From Nitrospirota bacterium (GTDB lineage: Bacteria; Nitrospirota; Nitrospiria; Nitrospirales; Nitrospiraceae), in NCBI GenBank assembly GCA_004296885.1, contig SCVN01000023.1, positions 496,001 through 560,000 on the forward strand: 64,000 nt of DNA. Reading direction: 5' to 3'. Below are positions 48,883-60,383 of this stretch, in pieces (within the stretch, counting starts at the first letter, position 1; each line of letters begins with the position of its first letter). A model generated the notes under the pieces. The model worked only from the letters and a program-made list of their open reading frames with translations, did not search any database and was not told the origin of the DNA. The position numbers and the translations under genes were made by a program.

Positions 48883-50580
48883 TTACCCCCTGCGCTTGTC
48901 CGAGCCGGCGATTTTGAACCCGCCGACGATGGTCTGCAGCTCCGTCGCCAGCACGCTGAGATCCTGGCTGGCCTTGGCCGACTCCGTGGCTCCGCCGGCC
49001 GACTCCTTGCTGACCTTGGCGACGTTCTCCAGATCGCCGGAGATCTGCTGAGTGGCCACGGACTGCTCTTCCGCCGCGACCGCGATCAGCCGGATCATGT
49101 CCGCCGTCTGCGTCACCCGTTCGGCGATGGTGGCCAGGGATTCGCCGGTCTTGTTGACGAGATCGACCCCGCTGTTGACCTTTTGCGTCCCCTCGTCCAT
49201 CGAGGCCACCGCCCCCTTGGTGTCCTGTTGGATGTGGCGGATCATGTCGCCGATTTCCTTCGTGGCTTTGGTCGTCCGCTCGGCCAGCTTCCGGACCTCG
49301 TCGGCGACGACCGCGAACCCGCGGCCCTGTTCGCCGGCCCGGGCCGCTTCAATCGCGGCATTCAACGCCAGCAAGTTGGTCTGGTCCGCGATGTCCTCGA
49401 TGACCCGCACGATCTCCCCGATCTGATCCGACGATTTGCCGAGCGTCGCGATGATCGTCGCCGACTGGGACACGGCGTCGGAGAGCTGCTGCATCCCCGA
49501 AATCGTCTCCTGCACGACGTCCTTGCCGCTCTTGGCCGTTTCCACCGCTTCCTGGGCGATCGAGGCCGCCTTGCCGGAGTTCTGGGCCACCTCGCCGACG
49601 GTCGCGTTCATTTCCTCCACCGCGGCTGCGGTCTGGGCCGTCCGCGCCGTCAAGCCGTCGGCCCCCTTGGCCATCTCCTCGGAGGTGGCGGACAGTTGAA
49701 CGGACGCGGCCGCCACCTTGTCCGTCACATGGGCGACTTTCCCGATCATCCCCTGCAATTTCTCGATGAACAGGTTCATCCAGCCGGCCAGTTCGTTGAT
49801 CTCATCCTTCCCGGCCACCGGCACCCGCTTGGTCAAATCGCCTTCGCCCTCGGCAATGTCGTGCGTGATCGCCGTCATCTGATGCAGGGGCTTCAGCACA
49901 ACCACGCGCAAGAGGCCGTACATCGCGGCCAGGATGGCCAGGATCATGCCGATGAGGACCATCGCACTCTTGACAAAGGAATCCTGCGCAAATTGTTTCG
50001 CCTTGACCATCGGGAAGGACACCGACAATATGCCCAGCGTATCCCCGATTTTCTTGTCCGTATGGCAGCCGATGCAGGCGGCCACCTGGGCCTTGTCCGG
50101 GGTCGCGCGGCGGTAGAAGGGCTCTCCGTTCTGCTCTTCCACCCGCGCATAGGATTCGGCTCCGCCCATAATGGCCCTCATCGCCGCTTCCTCGAAGCCG
50201 TCCTTGGGCGCATTGCTCGGATTCAGCGGGGTCGCGCTCACCATGCGTGCCGTCAAGATCCCGTCCTTGCCCAGTATCTCGCCGATTTCCCTCATGGCCG
50301 TGGCCGGCAGCGGCACCGCCTTGGGATTGTCCGCATGGTCCTTGACCACGACCATCTCGCTCTTGGGCATAGCCTTGACCTTGGCCACATAGTTCTTGGT
50401 AATGTAGGCGCGGGTGGCTTCCATCTGCGCCTGCACGACTTTGCCACGCATCTCCAGCATCCCCAACAGTTGGACTTGGTTTTGCTGGTAGGTCACCCAC
50501 AGGCCGATGGCCATGACCACGAGCCCGACGCCCGTGATCAACATGAGAAACTTCGGTCCGATTTTCATTTGCTGCAACAT
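48883..50580 (-). CDS. methyl-accepting chemotaxis protein with c-type heme site
   Basis: A 565-residue chemoreceptor. TM1 lies near 9-30. The sensor domain of about 165 residues is of the DUF3365/Tll0287-like kind and contains one CIGCH heme-c attachment motif (residues 169-173). TM2 near 203-223 is followed by HAMP (about 225-280) and an MCP signalling hairpin with the conserved tip NLLALNAAIEAARAGEQGRG. The periplasmic location of CxxCH fits cytochrome c maturation. It should sense redox state, oxygen/NO or another heme ligand. An internal ATG five codons in is an alternative start. Confidence 0.9.
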   Translation of the reverse strand: MLQQMKIGPKFLMLITGVGLVVMAIGLWVTYQQNQVQLLGMLEMRGKVVQAQMEATRAYITKNYVAKVKAMPKSEMVVVKDHADNPKAVPLPATAMREIGEILGKDGILTARMVSATPLNPSNAPKDGFEEAAMRAIMGGAESYARVEEQNGEPFYRRATPDKAQVAACIGCHTDKKIGDTLGILSVSFPMVKAKQFAQDSFVKSAMVLIGMILAILAAMYGLLRVVVLKPLHQMTAITHDIAEGEGDLTKRVPVAGKDEINELAGWMNLFIEKLQGMIGKVAHVTDKVAAASVQLSATSEEMAKGADGLTARTAQTAAAVEEMNATVGEVAQNSGKAASIAQEAVETAKSGKDVVQETISGMQQLSDAVSQSATIIATLGKSSDQIGEIVRVIEDIADQTNLLALNAAIEAARAGEQGRGFAVVADEVRKLAERTTKATKEIGDMIRHIQQDTKGAVASMDEGTQKVNSGVDLVNKTGESLATIAERVTQTADMIRLIAVAAEEQSVATQQISGDLENVAKVSKESAGGATESAKASQDLSVLATELQTIVGGFKIAGSDKRRG

Positions 50581-50671: not shown

Positions 50672-51733
50672 CTAAATCATGTTCATCACTTCGCCCGCGA
50701 CGTGAGACAGAGGCACGACCTTGTCCGCATAGCCTCCGTCCACCACCGCCTTGGGCATGCCGTAGACCACGCAAGTCGCCTCGTCCTGGGCCACCGTCCG
50801 GCCCTTGGCCCCCTTGATGGCCTTCATCCCCTCCAGCCCGTCGTGGCCCATGCCGGTCAGGATGACGCCGATCCCGCGCCCCGAATAGATCTCGGCCACC
50901 GACTGCATCATGATGTCCACGGAAGGCGCGTGGAGATGGTTTTCTCGGTTGGGCGCCAGGGTGATCGACACATCGAGCGCGCTCCGCCGGGCCACCCGCA
51001 TCTGCAAGCCGCCCGGCGCCATCAAGGCGACCCCGGGGGCGACCACCTGGCCGTCCTCCGCCTCACGCACCTCGATCTGGCAGAGCTGGTTCATCCGCTC
51101 CGCGAAGGGCTTGGTAAAGTATTTCGGCATGTGCTGGACGACCAGGATGCCGGCCGGAAAATCTTTCGGGAACAGGGGCAGGACATCCTGGAGCGCCTTC
51201 GGTCCCCCGGTCGAACAGCCGATGGCGACGATCTTGTTGCCCCGCATCACGCTGAGGGCCGATTGCGTGAGCGTCGGCAGCGGCAGGGGCTTCGGCCGGC
51301 TGCCGTTGGGCCTGGCAATCTTGCCCGCCGAACCGGCCGCCGCGATGATTTTGGCGATCAACTCCTGCTGGATCGCCACGATATTCGTCGAGACCCCGTC
51401 CAGTTGCTTGGGCAGATAATCCACCGCGCCCAGTTCCAGGGCTTTCAGAGTTTCCTTCGCCCCCTCCTCGGTCAGGGAGCTGACCATGATGACGGGGAGC
51501 GGCCTGATCTCCATGATCTTTTTGAGCGCCTCCAGCCCGTTCATCCCCGGCATCTCGACGTCCAGCGTCACCACGTCCGGGTGCAACGTCCCGACCTGCC
51601 GGATGGCTTCCTCCCCGTCCCGGGCCATGCCGACCACGGTCATGCGCGGATCGCTGCTCAGCATGGTGCTGATCGTCTTGCGCATGAAGGTGGAATCGTC
51701 CACCACCAGAACTTTGATCGGCGCCTGGCTCAT
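50672..51733 (-). CDS. cheB: chemotaxis methylesterase CheB
   Basis: A 353-residue protein with an N-terminal receiver domain (VVDDSTFMRK, phospho-Asp in TLDVEMPGMNG, Lys in YLPKQ) and C-terminal methylesterase domain with the catalytic triad elements GCSTGG, QHMP and GMGHDG. It demethylates and deamidates MCP glutamates for adaptation. It lies 12 bases after cheV within the leftward che block. Confidence 0.94.
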   Translation of the reverse strand: MSQAPIKVLVVDDSTFMRKTISTMLSSDPRMTVVGMARDGEEAIRQVGTLHPDVVTLDVEMPGMNGLEALKKIMEIRPLPVIMVSSLTEEGAKETLKALELGAVDYLPKQLDGVSTNIVAIQQELIAKIIAAAGSAGKIARPNGSRPKPLPLPTLTQSALSVMRGNKIVAIGCSTGGPKALQDVLPLFPKDFPAGILVVQHMPKYFTKPFAERMNQLCQIEVREAEDGQVVAPGVALMAPGGLQMRVARRSALDVSITLAPNRENHLHAPSVDIMMQSVAEIYSGRGIGVILTGMGHDGLEGMKAIKGAKGRTVAQDEATCVVYGMPKAVVDGGYADKVVPLSHVAGEVMNMI

Positions 51734-51745
51734 GGTCGTGTCCCC

Positions 51746-52696
51746 TCAAGCATCGAGATACTTGAGAATTTTTTCCGTCAGAATCTTGGGATCGAACTTG
51801 GTCACGTAATCCGTCGCCCCGACGCTTTTCCCCTTCTCTTCGTTGCAGACCCCGGTCAGCGAGGAATGCAGGATGATCGGGATGCCGGCGAAGCGGTGAT
51901 CGGAGCGGACCTGCTTGGTCAGCGCGAACCCGTCCATCTCGGGCATTTCAATATCGCTCAGAATCAGATGGACCTCGTCCCGGACCGACTTCCCCTCGGC
52001 CTGCGCCTTGTCCGCCAGGGCGGCCAATTGCGTCCAGGCCTCGCGGCCGGTCGTGGCTTGGTGAAACGACATGCCGAGCCGCTCCAACGTCTTGCGGATC
52101 TGTGTGCGGGCGACCAGGGAATCGTCCGCGAACATCACGTGCCTGGCTTTCAGGTCGGTTTTTGCCGCAACCCCGGCGAAGACCTCTTCGTCCGGCCGCG
52201 GACAGATGTCGCTCAGCACCTTCTCCACGTCCAAAATGAGAACCATCCGCCCGTCCTCCAGCGTCGTCACGGCGGTGACCGCTCCGCCGCCGCCCACATG
52301 GCGCATCAACGGCGGCGGCGGCTTGACCTGGTCCCAGGACACCCGGATGATTCGATCCACCCCGGCCACGTGCAACCCCTGCAGCGTCTGGTTGTACTCG
52401 GCGACGATGAGATTGCCCGAGTCGGCCGAGAGACCAGGCCCTTCGCCCAGGTCGATCTTCAGCGCCGACACGAGGTTCACCACGGGAACCGTCTTGCCCC
52501 GGAGATTGGCCATCCCTTCGATGCGCTCATCCGTCTCCGGCACTTTCGTCAAGGGGGGCAACTTCATGACTTCCCGCACTTTGAAGACGTTGATCCCGAA
52601 GACTTCCTCGCCTCCCAGGAAAAAGAGGAGCAGTTCCATCCGGTTGGCCCCGGCCAGCCTGGTCCGGGCATCTACTTCCTTGATGAGTGTCGACAT
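51746..52696 (-). CDS. cheV: chemotaxis protein CheV (CheW-receiver fusion)
   Basis: A 316-residue protein: CheW-like domain (about 20-165, FFLGGEEVFGINVFKVREVM and GMANLRGKTVPVVNLVSAL, given in parts) followed by a CheY-like receiver (MFADDSLVARTQIRK, phospho-Asp in LILSDIEMPEMDG, Lys in VTKFDP). CheV is a second coupling protein whose receiver damps signalling. The presence of both CheV and CheW suggests layered adaptation. Confidence 0.93.
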   Translation of the reverse strand: MSTLIKEVDARTRLAGANRMELLLFFLGGEEVFGINVFKVREVMKLPPLTKVPETDERIEGMANLRGKTVPVVNLVSALKIDLGEGPGLSADSGNLIVAEYNQTLQGLHVAGVDRIIRVSWDQVKPPPPLMRHVGGGGAVTAVTTLEDGRMVLILDVEKVLSDICPRPDEEVFAGVAAKTDLKARHVMFADDSLVARTQIRKTLERLGMSFHQATTGREAWTQLAALADKAQAEGKSVRDEVHLILSDIEMPEMDGFALTKQVRSDHRFAGIPIILHSSLTGVCNEEKGKSVGATDYVTKFDPKILTEKILKYLDA

Positions 52697-52724: not shown

Positions 52725-54593
52725 TCAACAACTGCGCACGTTTTGCACGAGCTCGCCGATGTCCAGGATCAGGACCACCTTGCCTTCCCCCGTGATCGTC
52801 GCGCCGGCAATGCCCTTGATGGCGGCCAGATAGTCCCACATGGACTTGATGACCACTTCTTCCTGGGAACGGAGCCGGTCCACGACGACGCCGATCTGCC
52901 GGTCGCCGACCCCCACCACCACCACGTAGAACTTGTCCAAATTCGGATCGCCGGGCATCTGAAATTCCTCCGCCATGCGGAAGAGGGGCAGCACCCGTTC
53001 GCGCAGATTCAGCACCTCGCGGCCATTGATCGTTTTGACGTCATCCTTGGTGATCTTGACCGCCTCGAGCACCGACCCGAGCGGAATCGCAAAAATCGCC
53101 CGATCCACCTCCACCAGCAGGGCTTGGATGATGGCGATCGTCAACGGCAGCTTGATCGTCACCAGGCTTCCCTTGCCCGCTTCGGAGGCCAACTCCACCG
53201 TCCCGTTGATCTTGCGGATATTGGTCCGGACGACATCCATCCCGACGCCGCGCCCGGAGATATCCGACACCTGATCGGCCGTGCTGAAGCCCGGCAGAAA
53301 AATCAGATTCAACACCTCGCGCGGCTCCATGGTGGCGAGTTCGGCTTCGCCGACCAGGCCTTTGGCCAAGGCTTTGGCCTTGATCTTTTCTACCTGCATG
53401 CCGCGACCGTCGTCCTCGATGCGGATGACGATGCTGTTCCCTTCCTGGCTGGCCGCAATCCGCACCACCCCTTCGCCGGACTTGCCGGCCGCCATGCGAT
53501 CGGCCGGCGGCTCGATCCCGTGATCGATGGCGTTGCGCACCAGATGGACCAGCGGATCACCGATTTCGTCGGCCACCGACTTGTCCAACTCGGTTTCTTC
53601 CCCGTGCAGTTCCAGCCGGACCTGCTTGCCGATCTTCTGCGACAAGTCCCGCACCATACGCGGGAACTTGGCCAAGGCCTTGCGGATCGGCAACATGCGG
53701 GTCTTCATGACGGCCAGCTGCAGGTCGGTCGTCACCAGATTCAGCTGGGCGAGGGTCTCGGAGAGTTCCCGGACTTTCGGATCGTTCTCGTGGATCTCCT
53801 CCAACTCGCCGCCGATTTTCATCATGCGGTTGCGGCCCAGCACCAGTTCGCCGACCAGGTTCATGACCTGATCCAGCCGCTTCGTCTCGACCCGGATCGT
53901 CTGGTCTTCCTCGGGCCGCTTGGCCGGCTTCTCCTGCTGCTGCTTCTGTAACGCCGCGTCCAGCGTTTGTTCGTTGACCGCCTCCATCTTGACGAGGATC
54001 TCGCCGAGGGGGACCTTGGTCTCCTGCTTGTCCAGCGCCTCGATCACCTGCTCCTTGGACACCGCCCCCTGTTCGATCAGGATCTCGCCGAGCCGGGAGG
54101 GCGTCGGCGGCTTCGACAGAGCGCCGGGCTCCACCGACGGAGCGGACGGGGCGTTGGGCTTGGCTTCGGCCTTCGCCGGAGACGCGTTCAGGACCGGATC
54201 GGCGTCGAGGCTCAGCACCAGGTCCAGCTTGTTCGACATCGCATCGGTTTCCACATGCTGGTCGGTTCCGGACTCCCGGATGTCCGCCATGAGCAGCTTC
54301 ACGACGTCGATGGTCTCGAGAATGACGTTGATCACGCCCGGCGTGACCGTCATGTCGCCCTGACGCAGCTTGTTCAGGATGCTTTCCGCCCGGTGGGTCA
54401 CGTCCACCAGCCGGGTGAAGCCCAGGAACCCGGCGGACCCCTTCATGCTGTGCATGGCCCGGAAGATCTCGTTCAGGAGATCCTTGTTGCCGGGGTCGGT
54501 TTCCAAGGTGATGAACCGCTGATCGAGCAGTTCGAGCATCTCCTGGGTCTCCGCAAGAAAGTCGTTGCGGATCTCTATCATTTCGTCTTCCAT
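52725..54593 (-). CDS. cheA: chemotaxis histidine kinase CheA with MshEN-like insert
   Basis: A 622-residue CheA. An HPt domain at 1-125 has phospho-acceptor His48 in AMHSMKGSAGF. A proline/alanine-rich linker is followed, in the position of the usual P2 domain, by two 24-residue motifs of the RLGEILIEQGAVSKEQ type at 167-190 and 195-218 that resemble the tandem motif of c-di-GMP-binding MshEN domains. Then dimerisation P3 (about 233-300, RLDQVMNLVGELVLGRNRMM), ATPase P4 (NAIDHGIEPP, EDDGRGMQ, GRGVGMDVV) and CheW-like P5. CheA phosphorylates CheY and CheB. It lies 28 bases from cheV. Confidence 0.92.
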   Translation of the reverse strand: MEDEMIEIRNDFLAETQEMLELLDQRFITLETDPGNKDLLNEIFRAMHSMKGSAGFLGFTRLVDVTHRAESILNKLRQGDMTVTPGVINVILETIDVVKLLMADIRESGTDQHVETDAMSNKLDLVLSLDADPVLNASPAKAEAKPNAPSAPSVEPGALSKPPTPSRLGEILIEQGAVSKEQVIEALDKQETKVPLGEILVKMEAVNEQTLDAALQKQQQEKPAKRPEEDQTIRVETKRLDQVMNLVGELVLGRNRMMKIGGELEEIHENDPKVRELSETLAQLNLVTTDLQLAVMKTRMLPIRKALAKFPRMVRDLSQKIGKQVRLELHGEETELDKSVADEIGDPLVHLVRNAIDHGIEPPADRMAAGKSGEGVVRIAASQEGNSIVIRIEDDGRGMQVEKIKAKALAKGLVGEAELATMEPREVLNLIFLPGFSTADQVSDISGRGVGMDVVRTNIRKINGTVELASEAGKGSLVTIKLPLTIAIIQALLVEVDRAIFAIPLGSVLEAVKITKDDVKTINGREVLNLRERVLPLFRMAEEFQMPGDPNLDKFYVVVVGVGDRQIGVVVDRLRSQEEVVIKSMWDYLAAIKGIAGATITGEGKVVLILDIGELVQNVRSC

Positions 54594-54657: not shown

Positions 54658-55248
54658 TCAATTGAATCCGCACTCGCCGAGAATGTCGTCCACCAGATCC
54701 TGCTTGAGCGCGGTCGTCCGGGACGCTTCCAGCTCTTTGAGCATCTGTCCGGCCCGGTTATCCTCGGCGCGCCGCTCCCCCTCCTGCTTGCAACCGAACA
54801 CCACGATCATCTCCAGCAGCCGTCGTTGCACATCGTCGAGAATGACCAGAATTTTCTTGACCCGCTGGCCGACGAGATCCTGAAAAGACAGGGCCGTCAT
54901 GATGTCAAGCAGCCGCTTATCGTCGGCCACCAACAGCCGTTTGATCGAAGCGATCCGGTCCGCAATGCCGGCGTCCAACTTGGCCTGCAGGGCCAGCCCG
55001 GCGAGTTGATCCAGCAACTTGGTCGCTTCCGCCCGCCCATCCTGCATCTCCTCGGTCAACTCCATCACCTGATGGGTTCCTTCCTCGGTCAACTTCGTCA
55101 GGTCCGAGAGCTGCGCGGACACTTGCGGCAGGTTTCCGAAGGACGGCACCGCCGCCGCCTCCATGTCCGACACCGTCCGGACGGTGGCATTGATGAACCG
55201 GCTGACCTCCACCACCTTGCGGTACAAATCCTGACTCTCTTCATTCAC
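54658..55248 (-). CDS. cheZ: CheZ-type phosphatase of CheY-P
   Basis: A 196-residue helical protein with the CheZ hallmark MTALSFQDLVGQRVKKI (catalytic Gln in SFQDL) and a C-terminal CheY-binding tail (DLVDDILGECGFN). It removes phosphate from CheY. The start is GTG 55248 with GGAGG upstream. Its presence next to cheY outside the Proteobacteria is worth noting but known for other phyla. Confidence 0.85.
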   Translation of the reverse strand: MNEESQDLYRKVVEVSRFINATVRTVSDMEAAAVPSFGNLPQVSAQLSDLTKLTEEGTHQVMELTEEMQDGRAEATKLLDQLAGLALQAKLDAGIADRIASIKRLLVADDKRLLDIMTALSFQDLVGQRVKKILVILDDVQRRLLEMIVVFGCKQEGERRAEDNRAGQMLKELEASRTTALKQDLVDDILGECGFN

Positions 55249-55318: not shown

Positions 55319-55699
55319 CTATTTGAAGATCTTCGCCATCTTGTCTTGCAGCGCCTCGGCCGTAAACGGCTTGACGATGTAGTTGCTGACGCCGGCCTGC
55401 ACCGCCTCGATGATGTTCTCTTTCTGCGCTTCCGCGGTCACCATCAGGACCGGAATCTGCTTGAGCGCCTCGTCGGCGCGGATCGCCCGGAGCATGTCGA
55501 TCCCCGTCATGACCGGCATGTTCCAGTCGGACACGACGAAACCGTAGGGCTCCCCCTTGAGCTTCTCGAGGGCTTCCTTCCCGTTCTCGGCTTCCTCGAC
55601 ATTGGTGAACCCGAGCTGCTTCAAGACGTTTTTGACGATGCGACGCATCGTGGACATATCGTCCACCACCATGATTTTCATATTGGGATCAGCCGGCAT
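55319..55699 (-). CDS. cheY: chemotaxis response regulator CheY
   Basis: A 126-residue single receiver domain: acidic pocket [13 protein letters not shown], phospho-Asp in [12 protein letters not shown], Thr in MVTAEAQK and Lys in [11 protein letters not shown], the typical CheY set. Binds FliM/FliN in the motor when phosphorylated. It is read before cheZ and cheA in the leftward block and has GGAGGGGAG before its ATG. Confidence 0.95.
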
Positions 55700-55893: not shown

Positions 55894-56715
55894 TCAGGCT
55901 TTCTGGTACAGCACCGTCCGATGCGCGTGCATCGTTTTGAAGGCGCTCGAAACCGCGTGCATGGACTCCGAGAACCCGATAACCAGATAGCCGTTCGGCC
56001 GCAAGCAGTCATACAGGCTGGCCACGATCTTTTGCTTGGCCTTGTCGTCGAAGTAAATCAGGCAGTTCCGGCAGAAGATCACATCCATCCCCCGCAGCAT
56101 CTTCAGGCGCGCCTGGTCGTAGAGATTGACGTTCATGAATTTGACGAGTTGCTTGGCCTTGGGGGACAGCACGTACTGACTGCCCTCGAGAGCAAAGTAT
56201 TTCTTGAGGAGATCCGGCGGAATGTTGCGCACCGAGTGGGCACTGTAGGCGCCTCGGCGGGCATGGCTCAGAACGGTCTCGCTGATGTCGCTGCCCAGAA
56301 TTTCGATCGACCAGTTGGCCAACGCCGGCCGCTCCAGCAGCATCATGGCCAACGTGTAGGGCTCGTCCCCCGTGGAGCAGGCGGCGCTCCAGATCCGGAG
56401 CTTCGACGCCTCTCGGTTCGCCTCCATAATGGCCGGCACGATCGTGTCGTTGAACGCGTGCAATTGGGGCACGTCCCGATAGAAAAAGGTTTCGTTCGTC
56501 GTGATCAAGTCGAACAGGGCCGTCAGCTCGCTGTCCCGCCAGGCGTCGAATTTCAAGAGATTGTAGTAGTCTTCGTAGGATCGGCAGTGTCGCTCGCGCA
56601 GCCGAGACTGCAACCGTCCCTCCAGGATGTATTTCTTGTTGTCCTGAAAATACATCCCGCTCCGTTCGTAGATCAGATCCCGGAGCTGCTTGAAGGTGTC
56701 GGGGCTCAACTGCAT
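55894..56715 (-). CDS. cheR: chemotaxis methyltransferase CheR
   Basis: A 273-residue enzyme with an N-terminal helical CheR domain (FKQLRDLIYERSGMYFQDNK) and SAM-methyltransferase domain (LRIWSAACSTGDEPYTLAMM; RNCLIYFDDKAKQKI). It methylates glutamates of MCPs. ATG 56715 is used, with AAGGAA upstream; the longer frame (to 56757) is unlikely. Confidence 0.93.
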   Translation of the reverse strand: MQLSPDTFKQLRDLIYERSGMYFQDNKKYILEGRLQSRLRERHCRSYEDYYNLLKFDAWRDSELTALFDLITTNETFFYRDVPQLHAFNDTIVPAIMEANREASKLRIWSAACSTGDEPYTLAMMLLERPALANWSIEILGSDISETVLSHARRGAYSAHSVRNIPPDLLKKYFALEGSQYVLSPKAKQLVKFMNVNLYDQARLKMLRGMDVIFCRNCLIYFDDKAKQKIVASLYDCLRPNGYLVIGFSESMHAVSSAFKTMHAHRTVLYQKA

Positions 56716-56817
56716 GGTGCTATTTCCTTCACGAGACGGACAGACCCCGGGCCCCATCCGCCGGCCGGCCCAAGTCCAGCCGTGGGTCTACGTCCGAGGC
56801 CTTCCGCCACGGCCCAG

Positions 56818-57057
56818 TTAACCGATCAAGAGCTGGTTCGAGCGGCTGTGGACCCACTGCTGGATATCCCTGCGCTGAAACCGCCAGTGCTTCCCGATTT
56901 TGGAAGCCGGCAGTTCGCCCAGCCTGGCCAATTTGTAGACCGTGGACTTGGGAACCCGCAGAAACCGGGCGACGTCAAGCACGGTCAAAATCTCGTGCTC
57001 GGCCCCCGAGCGTGTGTCCTGGCTCATGTCGGTTGCTGTCAATAGTGCGTCATTCAT
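56818..57057 (-). CDS. excisionase/MerR-like helix-turn-helix protein
   Basis: A 79-residue DNA-binding protein of the excisionase-like HTH_17 group (ILTVLDVARFLRVPKSTVYKLARLGELPASKIGKHWRFQRRDIQQWV, given here as ILTVLDVARFLRV and STVYKLARLGELPASKIG). It should bind DNA as a small winged helix. ATG 57057 is chosen from several in-frame starts (57027 is another). It stands between cheR and the divergent flhG-like gene, close to a GTGTAGTACAC palindrome, so local regulation of motility is plausible but unproven. Confidence 0.75.
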   Translation of the reverse strand: MNDALLTATDMSQDTRSGAEHEILTVLDVARFLRVPKSTVYKLARLGELPASKIGKHWRFQRRDIQQWVHSRSNQLLIG

Positions 57058-57131
57058 ATCGAATGGAGTTATCGGACAGCCGGCGGGGAAACTTGAGCCA
57101 CGCCGGCGACCGATCCGGAGACACTCTCCTG

Positions 57132-57160
57132 CGGACAATTTTCCCCGGGTGTAGTACACT
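57132..57160 (+). promoter_or_regulatory. promoter candidate with embedded palindrome before the flhG-like gene
   Basis: CGGACA (57132-57137), 17-base spacer, TACACT (57155-57160), ending 7 bases before the ATG, so the mRNA would be leaderless. GTGTAGTACAC (57149-57159) is a perfect odd palindrome overlapping the -10. Confidence 0.35.
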
Positions 57161-57167
57161 CCCGGCC

Positions 57168-58055
57168 ATGGCGATCATCGTGTCGGTGGCGTCCGGCAAG
57201 GGCGGCGTGGGCAAGAGCGTCGTCGCGTCGAACCTGGCCCTGCTCTTGGCGCGACACGGCAAGCAGGTCGTGCTGGCCGATCTGGACGTCGGCGGCGCCA
57301 ACCTCCACGTCCTCTTCGGCCTGTTCCACCCGTCCCGCACCCTGACCGATTTTCTCGCCAAGCGGGTGGAGACGCTCGACGCCGTGGCCCAACCTCTCGA
57401 CGCCCATCCCGGCCTCCGCCTGCTGCCCGGAACCGGAGAGACGCTGGCCACCGCCAACATGCCCTTCGCAAAGAAAAAGCGCCTGATTCGTCATCTGAAG
57501 GACCTGCCCGCCGACATCGTCGTCGTGGACGTGGGCGCGGGCACCAGCTATCATGCGCTGGATTTTTTCCTGATGGGCGACGCCCACCTCGCCGTGGCCA
57601 CGGCCGACCCCACGTCGGTGCTGGACCTCTACCGCTTCATCAAGCTGGCCGCCATCCGGCGGGTGCTGTCGGCGTTCCTCGCACGGGATGAAATCGCCGA
57701 GGTCCTGTCCGACCGCGACTTCGCCAGCGTCGAGGAAGTGCTGGAGGCCGCGGGCAAGACCGGCGACGCGGGCCGGGCCCAAGCCGCGGACATGCTGCAA
57801 GGGTTCCGTCCCTACTTGATTCTGAATCGGATGTCCGGACGCTCGCGGATCAACACCCTGCAGCTCAAGAACCTGCTGCAATCCTACGTCGGCGGGGACT
57901 TGGCTATGCTCGGCGAGATTCCCGAAGACGAAGCGGTGGAACGGTCCGTACGCCGCTATCTCCCGGTCGTGGACCATGCGCCCCTATCTCCTGCCGCCGA
58001 GTCCTTCAACCGCCTCGCGGAGGCGCTCCTGTTGGAGCTCCGCGGACGGGCCTAG
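57168..58055 (+). CDS. MinD/ParA-type ATPase, FlhG-like
   Basis: A 295-residue deviant-Walker ATPase: VASGKGGVGKSVVASNLAL (signature Lys in GKGGVGKS), Walker A' region LADLDVGGANLHVLFGL, and switch regions DIVVVDVGAGTSYHALDF. The C-terminal part (MSGRSRINTLQLKNLLQSY) resembles FlhG/FleN-like MinD proteins that set flagellar number. The motility context supports FlhG over septum MinD, but no flhF is in the window. It has no ribosome binding site and a promoter ending 7 bases upstream. Confidence 0.82.
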   Translation: MAIIVSVASGKGGVGKSVVASNLALLLARHGKQVVLADLDVGGANLHVLFGLFHPSRTLTDFLAKRVETLDAVAQPLDAHPGLRLLPGTGETLATANMPFAKKKRLIRHLKDLPADIVVVDVGAGTSYHALDFFLMGDAHLAVATADPTSVLDLYRFIKLAAIRRVLSAFLARDEIAEVLSDRDFASVEEVLEAAGKTGDAGRAQAADMLQGFRPYLILNRMSGRSRINTLQLKNLLQSYVGGDLAMLGEIPEDEAVERSVRRYLPVVDHAPLSPAAESFNRLAEALLLELRGRA

Positions 58056-58117: not shown

Positions 58118-58801
58118 CTAGCTCTCGTCGCCTCGTGCATATGCCGCACCCATGTGGCGCGCACGCAGCCGCTCTGCCTGCAGGTGCAGGATGTGCCGGA
58201 TGAGCCGCTCCCGTCCCTCCGAGTTGATCGAGGCGAACCGCGCCGCCGTCGAAAACCGGTCGGAGCCTCCGCGGGACGCCGCATCGGAGTGGCTGCGCCG
58301 AACCGGAATCACCCGCACCACTTCAGCCACCGTCGCGATGGGCACGAAGGGCGGCAGGATGATCCGCAGTTCCAGTTGCGCGCCACCCTCGAACCGGCGC
58401 GGCGCCTCGAAGCAGATCCCGCCGCCGCTGATATTCACCTCGGTCAGGCAGGGAATGGCCAGCCCCTGCGGGCTCATGCGGGCCACGGTTTTCAGGATCA
58501 GCTCCAGCGCCCAATCCACTTTCATCAGCCAGGGGGCAAGCCGCGCTTCGATCACGGTGGCCTGATCCGCCTCCTGCGCGGCGGCCCGGGCCAGCAGGTC
58601 GGTGGTCGGGCGCGCAATGAACGCCGTAATGGCCTCGTCCACCTGCGGCAGGGAGCGGCGTTCGCCTGATTCCGGCGCCTCGCCGAACGGCCAGTACTCA
58701 AGGAGCAACCGGTCGTCGATACGCAGCAACTCCCGCCGATCATCCTCGACCGGCTGGGTCTCGCGCAGCCGTGGCGTGTCAGCTGAGGATACGCGCGCCA
58801 T
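58118..58801 (-). CDS. PilZ-domain protein with long helical insertion
   Basis: A 227-residue protein with both c-di-GMP elements of PilZ: RELLR (RxxxR) near residue 24 and NISGGG (matching [D/N]xSxxG) about 105 residues later. The usual distance is 20-30, so a long helical region (DEAITAFIARPTTDLLARAA, WALELILKTVARM) is inserted between them, as in tetrameric PilZ proteins. It probably binds c-di-GMP and acts on flagella or attachment. The ATG is 2 bases from the stop of the diguanylate cyclase on the same strand (start at 58801, stop of the next gene at 58803), so they form one unit. Confidence 0.75.
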   Translation of the reverse strand: MARVSSADTPRLRETQPVEDDRRELLRIDDRLLLEYWPFGEAPESGERRSLPQVDEAITAFIARPTTDLLARAAAQEADQATVIEARLAPWLMKVDWALELILKTVARMSPQGLAIPCLTEVNISGGGICFEAPRRFEGGAQLELRIILPPFVPIATVAEVVRVIPVRRSHSDAASRGGSDRFSTAARFASINSEGRERLIRHILHLQAERLRARHMGAAYARGDES

Positions 58802-58802
58802 C

Positions 58803-60290
58803 TCAGCACCTGGCCCCGGCGTTTCCGACGCCGACCTTTTCCCGCTTGTACACTGGGCCCTCCATCGTCTGCGCCGCCCCATTCCGGACGGACTGGTTCG
58901 TTTCGACGCGGTTCCGTCCGCGCGTCTTCGCCTGGTAGAGCGCCTCGTCGGCCGCCGCCACGAGATCGTCCACCGTGGCGATCTGCGGATTGGGCGTCTG
59001 GGCGATCCCCATACTGACCGTCAGGCCGAAGCGCGCGCCGTCGGCGAGAAACGTCTGCTGCGCCAGCAGCTCGCGGATGCGATTGGCCAGCACCTGGGCC
59101 TGAGCCACGTCGGTCCGCGGCAGAATGATCGCAAACTCCTCGCCCCCGTACCGCGTGGCAATGTCCACCGTCCGAATGGCCTGCCCGATCAACCCGGCCA
59201 CATCCTGAAGAAGCCGATCTCCGACCGGATGCCCGAACCGGTCGTTCACGGATTTGAAATGATCCACGTCCAGCATGATCAGGCACAGCGGAGTCTGGTA
59301 TCGTTCGGCTTCGCGGAATTCACGGGCCAGAATGTTCGTGAAGGCCCGCCGGTTGAGCAGGTTCGTCAGCCCGTCCGTCAACGCCTGGCTTTGGACCTGC
59401 AGATGCGCCTCCGCATTCCGCAGGGCCAACGCCAGCGAGGTTGTGACGGCCTTGATGAGTTCCACATGGTACGGCTCGAAGGGTTCGCGTGATCCCCGTT
59501 GGAGCCGCAGGAACCCGACCGGCTCCTGGGCCACCCTGAGCGGCACTTCCAAGACCGCGCCCCCGACGGCAGACTCGCCTGCGACCGTCCCCTCCGGGGT
59601 CCGCGTGACCGATCCGGATCCGCCGGCGAGCAAGACACCCTGCACTCGCTGAATGGTCGCCGAGTCGGTCGCCGGGGCGGCATGGACCCATGCGCGCGGG
59701 GGCGCACACCAACCGACGCCCAGCAGGTCAAGATCGAGCATAGGGGTCAGCCGATGGCCGACCATCTGCACGATTTCCTCGGCATCCAGGGTGCCGGCAA
59801 AACTCTGGCTGAGATCGTTGACCAGCACGAGACTCTGGTTCCAGTGCCGCAACCCGTCCCGTTCCCGGGCCAGCTCTTCGTTGGCTTGCTGCAACTTGTC
59901 GGACAGTTCCCGGACCTGCAGAAAGGACCGACGGACCTCCAGCCCCTGGCGCAACGCCTCTTCCAACCGGCCGTCCGGCACGGGAGTGGCCAGATAATCG
60001 AAGGCGCCGGTCCGCAGCAAGGCCGCCGTGCGCTCGGCTCCGTGATCCCGCCCCGCCACAATCAGGCAGGCATCGGAATGGGAATCTCGGAGATCCTGCA
60101 AGAGCGCGAGCGCCCCCATTCCCGATCCGGGGAGATGGCAGATCACCGCTTCCACGTCGCAGGCGCTCCCCTCCGGCCCGCTCCACACGTCGTAGCCGGC
60201 GGCCTGCACCCGAGCCTGAAACGCCCTCCGGACCGACGCGGTGGGGCTCATCACCATCACTCGGGCTCGCTGGGAATCAAGTATGCTCAC
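58803..60290 (-). CDS. diguanylate cyclase (receiver-like, GAF, GGDEF)
   Basis: A 495-residue protein with a receiver-like N-terminal domain (about 1-120) that lacks a clear phospho-Asp, a coiled coil (about 120-160), a GAF-like domain (about 160-310), and a GGDEF domain with intact active site RYGGEEFAI (near 382) and the inhibitory I-site RTVD five residues before it. It makes c-di-GMP with product inhibition. The start is GTG 60290 with GGAGG spaced correctly; the TTG at 60296 is less likely. It precedes the PilZ gene and a sigma54-like promoter lies upstream. Confidence 0.88.
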   Translation of the reverse strand: MSILDSQRARVMVMSPTASVRRAFQARVQAAGYDVWSGPEGSACDVEAVICHLPGSGMGALALLQDLRDSHSDACLIVAGRDHGAERTAALLRTGAFDYLATPVPDGRLEEALRQGLEVRRSFLQVRELSDKLQQANEELARERDGLRHWNQSLVLVNDLSQSFAGTLDAEEIVQMVGHRLTPMLDLDLLGVGWCAPPRAWVHAAPATDSATIQRVQGVLLAGGSGSVTRTPEGTVAGESAVGGAVLEVPLRVAQEPVGFLRLQRGSREPFEPYHVELIKAVTTSLALALRNAEAHLQVQSQALTDGLTNLLNRRAFTNILAREFREAERYQTPLCLIMLDVDHFKSVNDRFGHPVGDRLLQDVAGLIGQAIRTVDIATRYGGEEFAIILPRTDVAQAQVLANRIRELLAQQTFLADGARFGLTVSMGIAQTPNPQIATVDDLVAAADEALYQAKTRGRNRVETNQSVRNGAAQTMEGPVYKREKVGVGNAGARC

Positions 60291-60383
60291 GGGCAACCTC
60301 CGTCTCGATGGCGGCGCCCCATTCGGGACCGCCGTGACGATGCGGACCGACTACGGCAACTTCTTCCTGTGCCGGAAAAGTAA

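Follow-up and report, generated by a model that had tools for sequence, protein, structure and literature searches.

The chemotaxis histidine kinase CheA encoded in the window (the whole stretch of 64,000 nucleotides that was analysed, and to which all positions refer) carries a genuine MshEN_N domain between its P1 and P3 domains, as established by the profile match, the predicted fold and the conservation of contact residues across the Nitrospirota. The reading that we prefer, and to which a probability of about 0.6 is assigned, is that this domain, placed on the P1-P3 tether of a flagellar-cluster CheA, binds one molecule of c-di-GMP between its two units and in this way alters kinase output.

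c-di-GMP and chemotaxis together decide whether a bacterium swims or settles, the known links between them being found at the receptors, at methylation and at the motor, and Nitrospira is a nitrifier of biofilms and flocs. If the preferred reading is true, CheA with its c-di-GMP receptor domain would connect c-di-GMP to chemotaxis by the shortest possible route, at the kinase itself. Input of c-di-GMP to chemotaxis is shared by the MapZ-CheR1 system of Pseudomonas aeruginosa and by Cbp1, a PilZ chemoreceptor of Azorhizobium, where it acts at methylation or at the receptor via PilZ domains, whereas the kinase is the proposed site here (PMC6370697, PMC6454048).

The pairing of MshEN with CheA was already known, CheA having been named among the MshEN-associated proteins by Wang et al. 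in 2016 (PMC5013675), where the main text lists the same domain combination. In the present analysis it proved to be conserved across the Nitrospirota with the c-di-GMP-contacting residues kept. In the literature searched, the 2016 listing is the only direct statement found on MshEN or T2SSE_N in connection with CheA and it has seemingly had no follow-up; likewise, no report was found there of an experiment on whether a CheA binds c-di-GMP, or of c-di-GMP control at the kinase step. The terms MshE, T2SS, GspE and c-di-GMP are all missing from the 2023 survey of CheA architectures (PMC10782961).

The CheA gene and the che cluster

The genome (G000, in which the window is C23:496001-560000) is Nitrospira-like, its nearest named relatives being Nitrospira and Nitrospirota MAGs. 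The cluster comprises cheR, cheY, cheZ, cheA, cheV, cheB, a gene for a methyl-accepting chemotaxis protein (MCP) and cheW, after which come motA and motB. The genes and domains of immediate concern are as follows.

50672..51733, minus strand: cheB (PF01339, E 4.3e-64)
51746..52696, minus strand: cheV (CheW plus receiver)
52725..54593, minus strand: cheA, of the class named CheA-1, 622 aa, from the ORF and Pfam (Hpt - linker - MshEN_N - H-kinase_dim (P3) - HATPase_c - CheW)
52740..53126, minus strand: CheW-like domain (P5) of CheA, residues 490-618 (PF01584, E 1.3e-26)
53139..53555, minus strand: HATPase_c (P4) of CheA, residues 347-485 (PF02518, E 1.2e-18)
53700..53903, minus strand: H-kinase_dim (P3) of CheA, residues 231-298 (PF02895, E 7.6e-17)
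53940..54095, minus strand: MshEN_N domain of CheA, residues 167-218 (NF053729.1; AF2 model with four helices)
54306..54575, minus strand: Hpt (P1) of CheA, residues 7-96 (PF01627, E 5.4e-16), phospho-acceptor motif HSMKG intact
54658..55248, minus strand: cheZ (PF04344, E 1.1e-13)
55319..55699, minus strand: cheY (PF00072, E 2e-31)
55894..56757, minus strand: cheR (PF01739, E 3e-57)

Every domain of the histidine kinase core (Hpt, H-kinase_dim, HATPase_c and CheW) scores above its Pfam cut-off, and the kinase domains and the P1 histidine are intact. The protein thus has P1, P3, P4 and P5 in common with the canonical E. coli type of CheA (P1-P2-P3-P4-P5), from which it differs by having MshEN_N between P1 (7-96) and P3 (231-298) and no P2 by Pfam.

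The MCP gene of the cluster (48883-50580, minus strand) encodes a Tll0287-like sensor domain; the sequence CIGCH within it is a CxxCH motif for c-type haem, and redox state or a gas may therefore be sensed through haem by this chemoreceptor.

Identity and predicted fold of the MshEN_N domain

The domain consists of two units, separated by the four residues ETKV.

54024..54095, minus strand: unit 1, residues 167-190, RLGEILIEQGAVSKEQVIEALDKQ; Val for Leu at 17 (plus Ala at 11) are the sole departures from the consensus of PMC5013675
53940..54011, minus strand: unit 2, residues 195-218, PLGEILVKMEAVNEQTLDAALQKQ; Pro for Arg1 and Glu for Gly10 (plus Ala at 11) depart from the same consensus

The sequence-only reading, which had placed two 24-residue units four residues apart here, was exact in its coordinates and residue numbers. 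It had also correctly noted Glu at Gly10 of unit 2, but had overlooked a second key change, that of Arg1 to Pro. With these two substitutions in unit 2, the pair has the MshEN_N layout of two tandem units, RLGxxhhxxGhhxxxxLxxxLxxQ, about five residues apart.

The NCBIfam model NF053729.1 (cyclic di-GMP-binding, MshE-related) matches residues 167-218 of CheA over its full length (1-53 of 53) with an E value of 3.9e-13 and 49 bits, the curated cut-off being 38 bits, and the isolated segment scores 54.2 bits. Searched against the PDB by phmmer, the segment returned PilB, PilF and MshE chains only. Nothing rose above the cut-off in a Pfam scan of the segment, and a sub-threshold Pfam match to DUF4388 was superseded by the NCBIfam match.

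The AF2 model of the domain, built from 35 CheA-borne sequences, is a bundle of four helices with a mean pLDDT of 78.8, i.e. of medium confidence. In a Foldseek search of the PDB its best match is 5htl, the c-di-GMP complex of V. cholerae MshE, at an rmsd of 1.1 A over 57 columns, and every chain from rank 1 to rank 14 is of the MshEN type; with a structural aligner, Z is 10.1 against 5htl and 9.4 against the GSPIIB domain of T. thermophilus PilF, unrelated rows reaching at most 4.3. Likeness of fold by itself does not demonstrate function. A profile score above the cut-off, the four-helix predicted fold and the retained ligand-contacting residues together bear out the assignment as MshEN_N.

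The closest known counterpart is thus MshEN_N of V. cholerae MshE (5htl; PMC5013675), with which the domain shares the two 24-residue units, the four-helix fold and Leu2, Gly3, Leu21 and Gln24 in both units, while it differs in being part of a CheA rather than an ATPase, in lacking MshEN_C, in a spacer of 4 instead of 5 residues and in the Pro at Arg1' and Glu at Gly10'. Like unit 2 of the CheA domain, GSPIIB of T. thermophilus PilF (8pdk and mutants) has no Arg at 1'; with Lys and Leu found at 1 and 1', it binds c-di-GMP without Arg at either position, and it was solved with this ligand; in contrast to CheA, PilF is a type IV pilus ATPase, and has a C-terminal subdomain.

Ligand-contacting residues and their conservation

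In MshE, the contacts with the base and with ribose/phosphate are made by Arg1, Leu2, Gly3, Leu17, Leu21 and Gln24 of each unit, Gly10 having a role in the turn, and MshEN_N without MshEN_C binds c-di-GMP with a KD of 0.35 uM (PMC5013675). Unit 1 of the window CheA keeps Arg1, Leu2, Gly3, Gly10, Leu21 and Gln24, with Val at 17; unit 2 keeps Leu2, Gly3, Leu17, Leu21 and Gln24. The set of Leu2, Gly3, Leu17, Leu21 and Gln24 is therefore present in both units, save for the Val of unit 1, whereas the stacking Arg1 of unit 1 is replaced by Pro in unit 2 and the turn Gly10 by Glu, the latter falling outside the [GAS] that the relaxed motif of Wang et al. allows at position 10 (PMC5013675). Arg1 is not an absolute requirement: its changes in MshE cost less than five-fold and the relaxed motif permits Pro at position 1 (PMC5013675), and PilF GSPIIB does without it. 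The retained Gly3, on the other hand, argues for ligand binding, because the MshE Gly3 mutants G11L and G40I are still folded, yet lose the stabilization by c-di-GMP (PMC5013675).

The domain is common in CheA of the Nitrospirota: of 396 sampled genomes searched with a profile that joins MshEN and P3, 109 have matches spanning both, 135 in all (counts transcribed from the profile-search listing), and 81 of the 109 belong to the window's own family. The survey covered the Nitrospirota, together with two plasmid-borne gammaproteobacterial CheAs obtained by tblastn. Residues were read out from 66 distinct CheA-borne pairs, the search profile and the read-out pattern both favouring motif-like sequences to some extent. 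Gln24, which the pattern did not demand, is found in both units of all 66 pairs, and Gly3, at a position where the pattern demanded Gly or Ser, in both units of 65; the question raised by the sequence-only reading, whether homologous CheA proteins conserve the motif residues, is thus answered in the affirmative for the Nitrospirota. The two residues are kept across spacers of 1 to 13 residues, which fall into classes of 1 (CheA-2), 4 (window type), 8 (N. defluvii type) and 11-13 (other families), and at identities down to about 30%. Mean entropy is 0.63 bits at the contact positions versus 1.70 elsewhere (p 0.0006, after clustering at 65%), and helix positions 18, 19 and 22, near the contacts, are highly variable. 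Position 1 is without Arg or Lys in both units of 17 of the 66 pairs, N. defluvii-type CheA-1 among them. The MshEN_N domain of CheA is under selection, strongest at the residues that would touch the ligand, because the contact positions are the most conserved and because the window protein and N. defluvii-type CheA share an identity of about 0.54-0.58 over the domain, compared with 0.26-0.36 over the linker before it.

These data bear on whether the MshEN fold might be a mere structural spacer or helical docking module that has lost nucleotide binding, as in Xanthomonas XpsE/GspE and PilB, which we consider unlikely. Degenerate MshEN domains are indeed known, i.e. XpsE (PMC5013675) and X. citri PilB (PMC8389850), and both the Pro and Glu of unit 2 and the 17 pairs without Arg or Lys would suit such a loss. 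However, in XpsE one or both units have lost Gly3, Gln24 and a number of the hydrophobic contacts (PMC5013675), and the contact residues are missing from PilB proteins of the FimX/PilZ type (PMC8389850), whereas the CheA pairs hold Gln24 invariant and Gly3 nearly so, which a mere spacer would not need.

Gly10 is present in unit 1 of 64 of the 66 pairs, but in unit 2 of only one. Glu at position 10 of unit 2 is therefore the usual state of the subfamily, since Gly is missing there in 65 of 66 pairs, and is weak evidence for weaker binding; the earlier concern that Glu for Gly lowers affinity loses much of its force, also in view of the role of Gly10 in the turn rather than in contacts (PMC5013675). 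The idea that this Glu marks a decaying domain in the window protein was rejected on the same count. In the closest relative (L013), with a CheA 93% identical, position 10 of unit 2 is Gly, and the differences from the window in this unit cluster in the turn, at positions 9'-13'. That the window CheA domain binds c-di-GMP at physiological concentrations is considered probable.

The c-di-GMP neighbourhood

Two genes with a bearing on c-di-GMP lie near the cluster.

58118..58882, minus strand: PilZ-domain protein (PF07238, 33.4 bits, cut-off 22.5), with RELLR for RxxxR and NISGGG for NxSxxG
58803..60296, minus strand: GGDEF protein (PF00990, 164.9 bits), with the I-site RTVD upstream of GGEEF (RTVD-IATRY-GGEEF)

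Thus a PilZ protein and a GGDEF protein with an intact I-site are both present, as the sequence-only reading had it, although the argument that it built on them is weakened. The PilZ gene next to the che cluster is conserved in Nitrospira clusters, its motif being found in relatives, whereas among ten named relatives examined only two (L013 and L014) have a GGDEF gene beside CheA, the N. defluvii-type clusters being without it; furthermore, a gene for a MinD/FlhG-like ATPase on the opposite strand (57012-58055) intervenes between the PilZ/GGDEF genes and cheR. The genome yields 17 matches to GGDEF, 3 to EAL and 8 to PilZ, and it is very likely, judging from gene content, that c-di-GMP is made in this cell. 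The neighbourhood indicates the presence of the messenger, not that the nearby GGDEF protein serves CheA.

The conserved PilZ gene raises the question whether the product of this upstream gene binds to the MshEN_N domain of CheA, in the way that PilZ docks on the N-terminal domain of X. citri PilB, the PilZ protein then being the carrier of the c-di-GMP signal. XcPilB-PilZ structures are also among the fold matches of the window domain, and it is PilZ, not GGDEF, that is the constant neighbour. Such docking is nonetheless improbable, because XcPilB grips PilZ mainly by its ND1 (MshEN_C) subdomain (PMC8389850), which is missing from CheA; moreover, the nearest fold matches are c-di-GMP-bound forms, and docking would leave the conserved Gln24 unexplained.

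There is very little likelihood that the ligand is another cyclic dinucleotide, e.g. 3',3'-cGAMP. The neighbouring GGDEF protein keeps, in its sequence, the Asp of GHPVGD, a position at which Hypr cGAMP synthases presumably have Ser. Going by section headings of Wang et al., MshEN also binds cGAMP according to one, but the domain is specific for c-di-GMP according to another (PMC5013675).

Proposed mechanism

According to the preferred reading, namely c-di-GMP binding by the P1-P3 tether, each CheA would hold one c-di-GMP between the two units, and the ligand would order the bundle about 12 residues N-terminal to the P3 helices. An ordered bundle so near to these helices could alter the mobility of P1 and its access to the ATP-binding domain or to CheY and, through it, autophosphorylation or phosphotransfer, so that the cellular level of c-di-GMP would shift the output of the chemotaxis kinase when the cell changes from swimming to life on a surface. 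That binding also alters kinase activity or phosphotransfer is given a slightly better than even chance. Counted against this explanation are a unit 2 without Arg1 and Gly10, the 17 of 66 pairs in which neither unit begins with Arg or Lys, f2-family CheA-1 proteins without the domain and the medium confidence of the AF2 model.

Two classes of CheA and other lineages

The domain-bearing CheAs form two deep classes, CheA-1, to which the window protein belongs, and CheA-2 (about 740 aa), besides CheA-1-like proteins of more distant families. The genome of the window encodes one domain-bearing CheA of each class, CheA-2 being on contig C16 (L001). In a tree of the kinase core, long branches with full support separate the two classes, each of which includes proteins with the domain, and at least four gains or losses of the domain are needed; the differing spacers may reflect separate insertions, or one insertion and losses, and the tree fits either. 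The notion that CheA-2, with its one-residue spacer, is unable to form the bundle was rejected: its AF2 model has the same fold, with a pLDDT of 88.6, and superposes on 5htl with Z 9.5 and an rmsd of 1.9 A over 56 residues. At the coordinates L001 652-2868 and G000:C16:125093-126328, the CheA-2 gene and a gene for a GGDEF-EAL protein are some 8 kb apart.

The CheA-1 orthologues of the f2 family (L086-L093) have no MshEN domain and a low-complexity P1-P3 region, while CheA-2 of the same genomes keeps the domain. They are a natural set of loss or non-gain, and the domain is dispensable in them because it is wholly missing there. Two cheA genes about 11 kb apart occur within one cluster in N. defluvii-like genomes, and one genome has three in tandem (L061, G384:C22:2500-12500), each with an MshEN pair and with spacers of 12-13. 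The assembled set, with the domain present or absent, four spacer classes and two CheA classes within a single genome, opens c-di-GMP input to CheA to a direct test in Nitrospira. A wider proposal, which we hold more tentatively, at somewhat below even odds, is that Nitrospira chemotaxis kinases read c-di-GMP directly, so that the gain of two arrays would be set by one messenger, at the kinase step, via CheA-1 and CheA-2.

As for the site of the domain, Pfam finds no P2 or CheY-binding domain between P1 and P3 of the window CheA at E up to 10, a search by which most P2 domains are missed, as is known of HMMER (Berry et al., PMC10782961). Where P2 is absent, the P1-P3 region is described as unstructured in that survey (PMC10782961).

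Given the position of the domain and the lack of a P2 match, it might be thought to substitute for P2, recruiting CheY or CheB for phosphotransfer, a reading to which we assign an even slimmer chance than to PilZ docking. MshEN is not known to have affinity for CheY. More than half of CheAs are without P2 (PMC10782961), and the MshEN pair of CheA-2 from the same genome, like that of the two plasmid CheAs from the Gammaproteobacteria, is C-terminal to a segment of about 100 residues that looks P2-like. The earlier statement that the units sit where P2 usually is thus stands as regards position, but not as regards replacement of P2. In CheA-2 (L001), the extra segment, at residues ~155-240 between Hpt and MshEN, is alpha/beta-looking and P2-like by eye, with no Pfam match.

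The plasmid CheAs, those of Pseudomonas sp. HR96 and Aeromonas sp. BC14, have similar pairs with both Gln24 kept, scoring 28 and 31 bits, below the NF053729.1 cut-off, and because of them the MshEN-CheA arrangement extends beyond the Nitrospirota. Their genes (L107 1012-3195 and L108 994-3207), in which the MshEN pair is divergent, adjoin STAS-domain and receptor genes.
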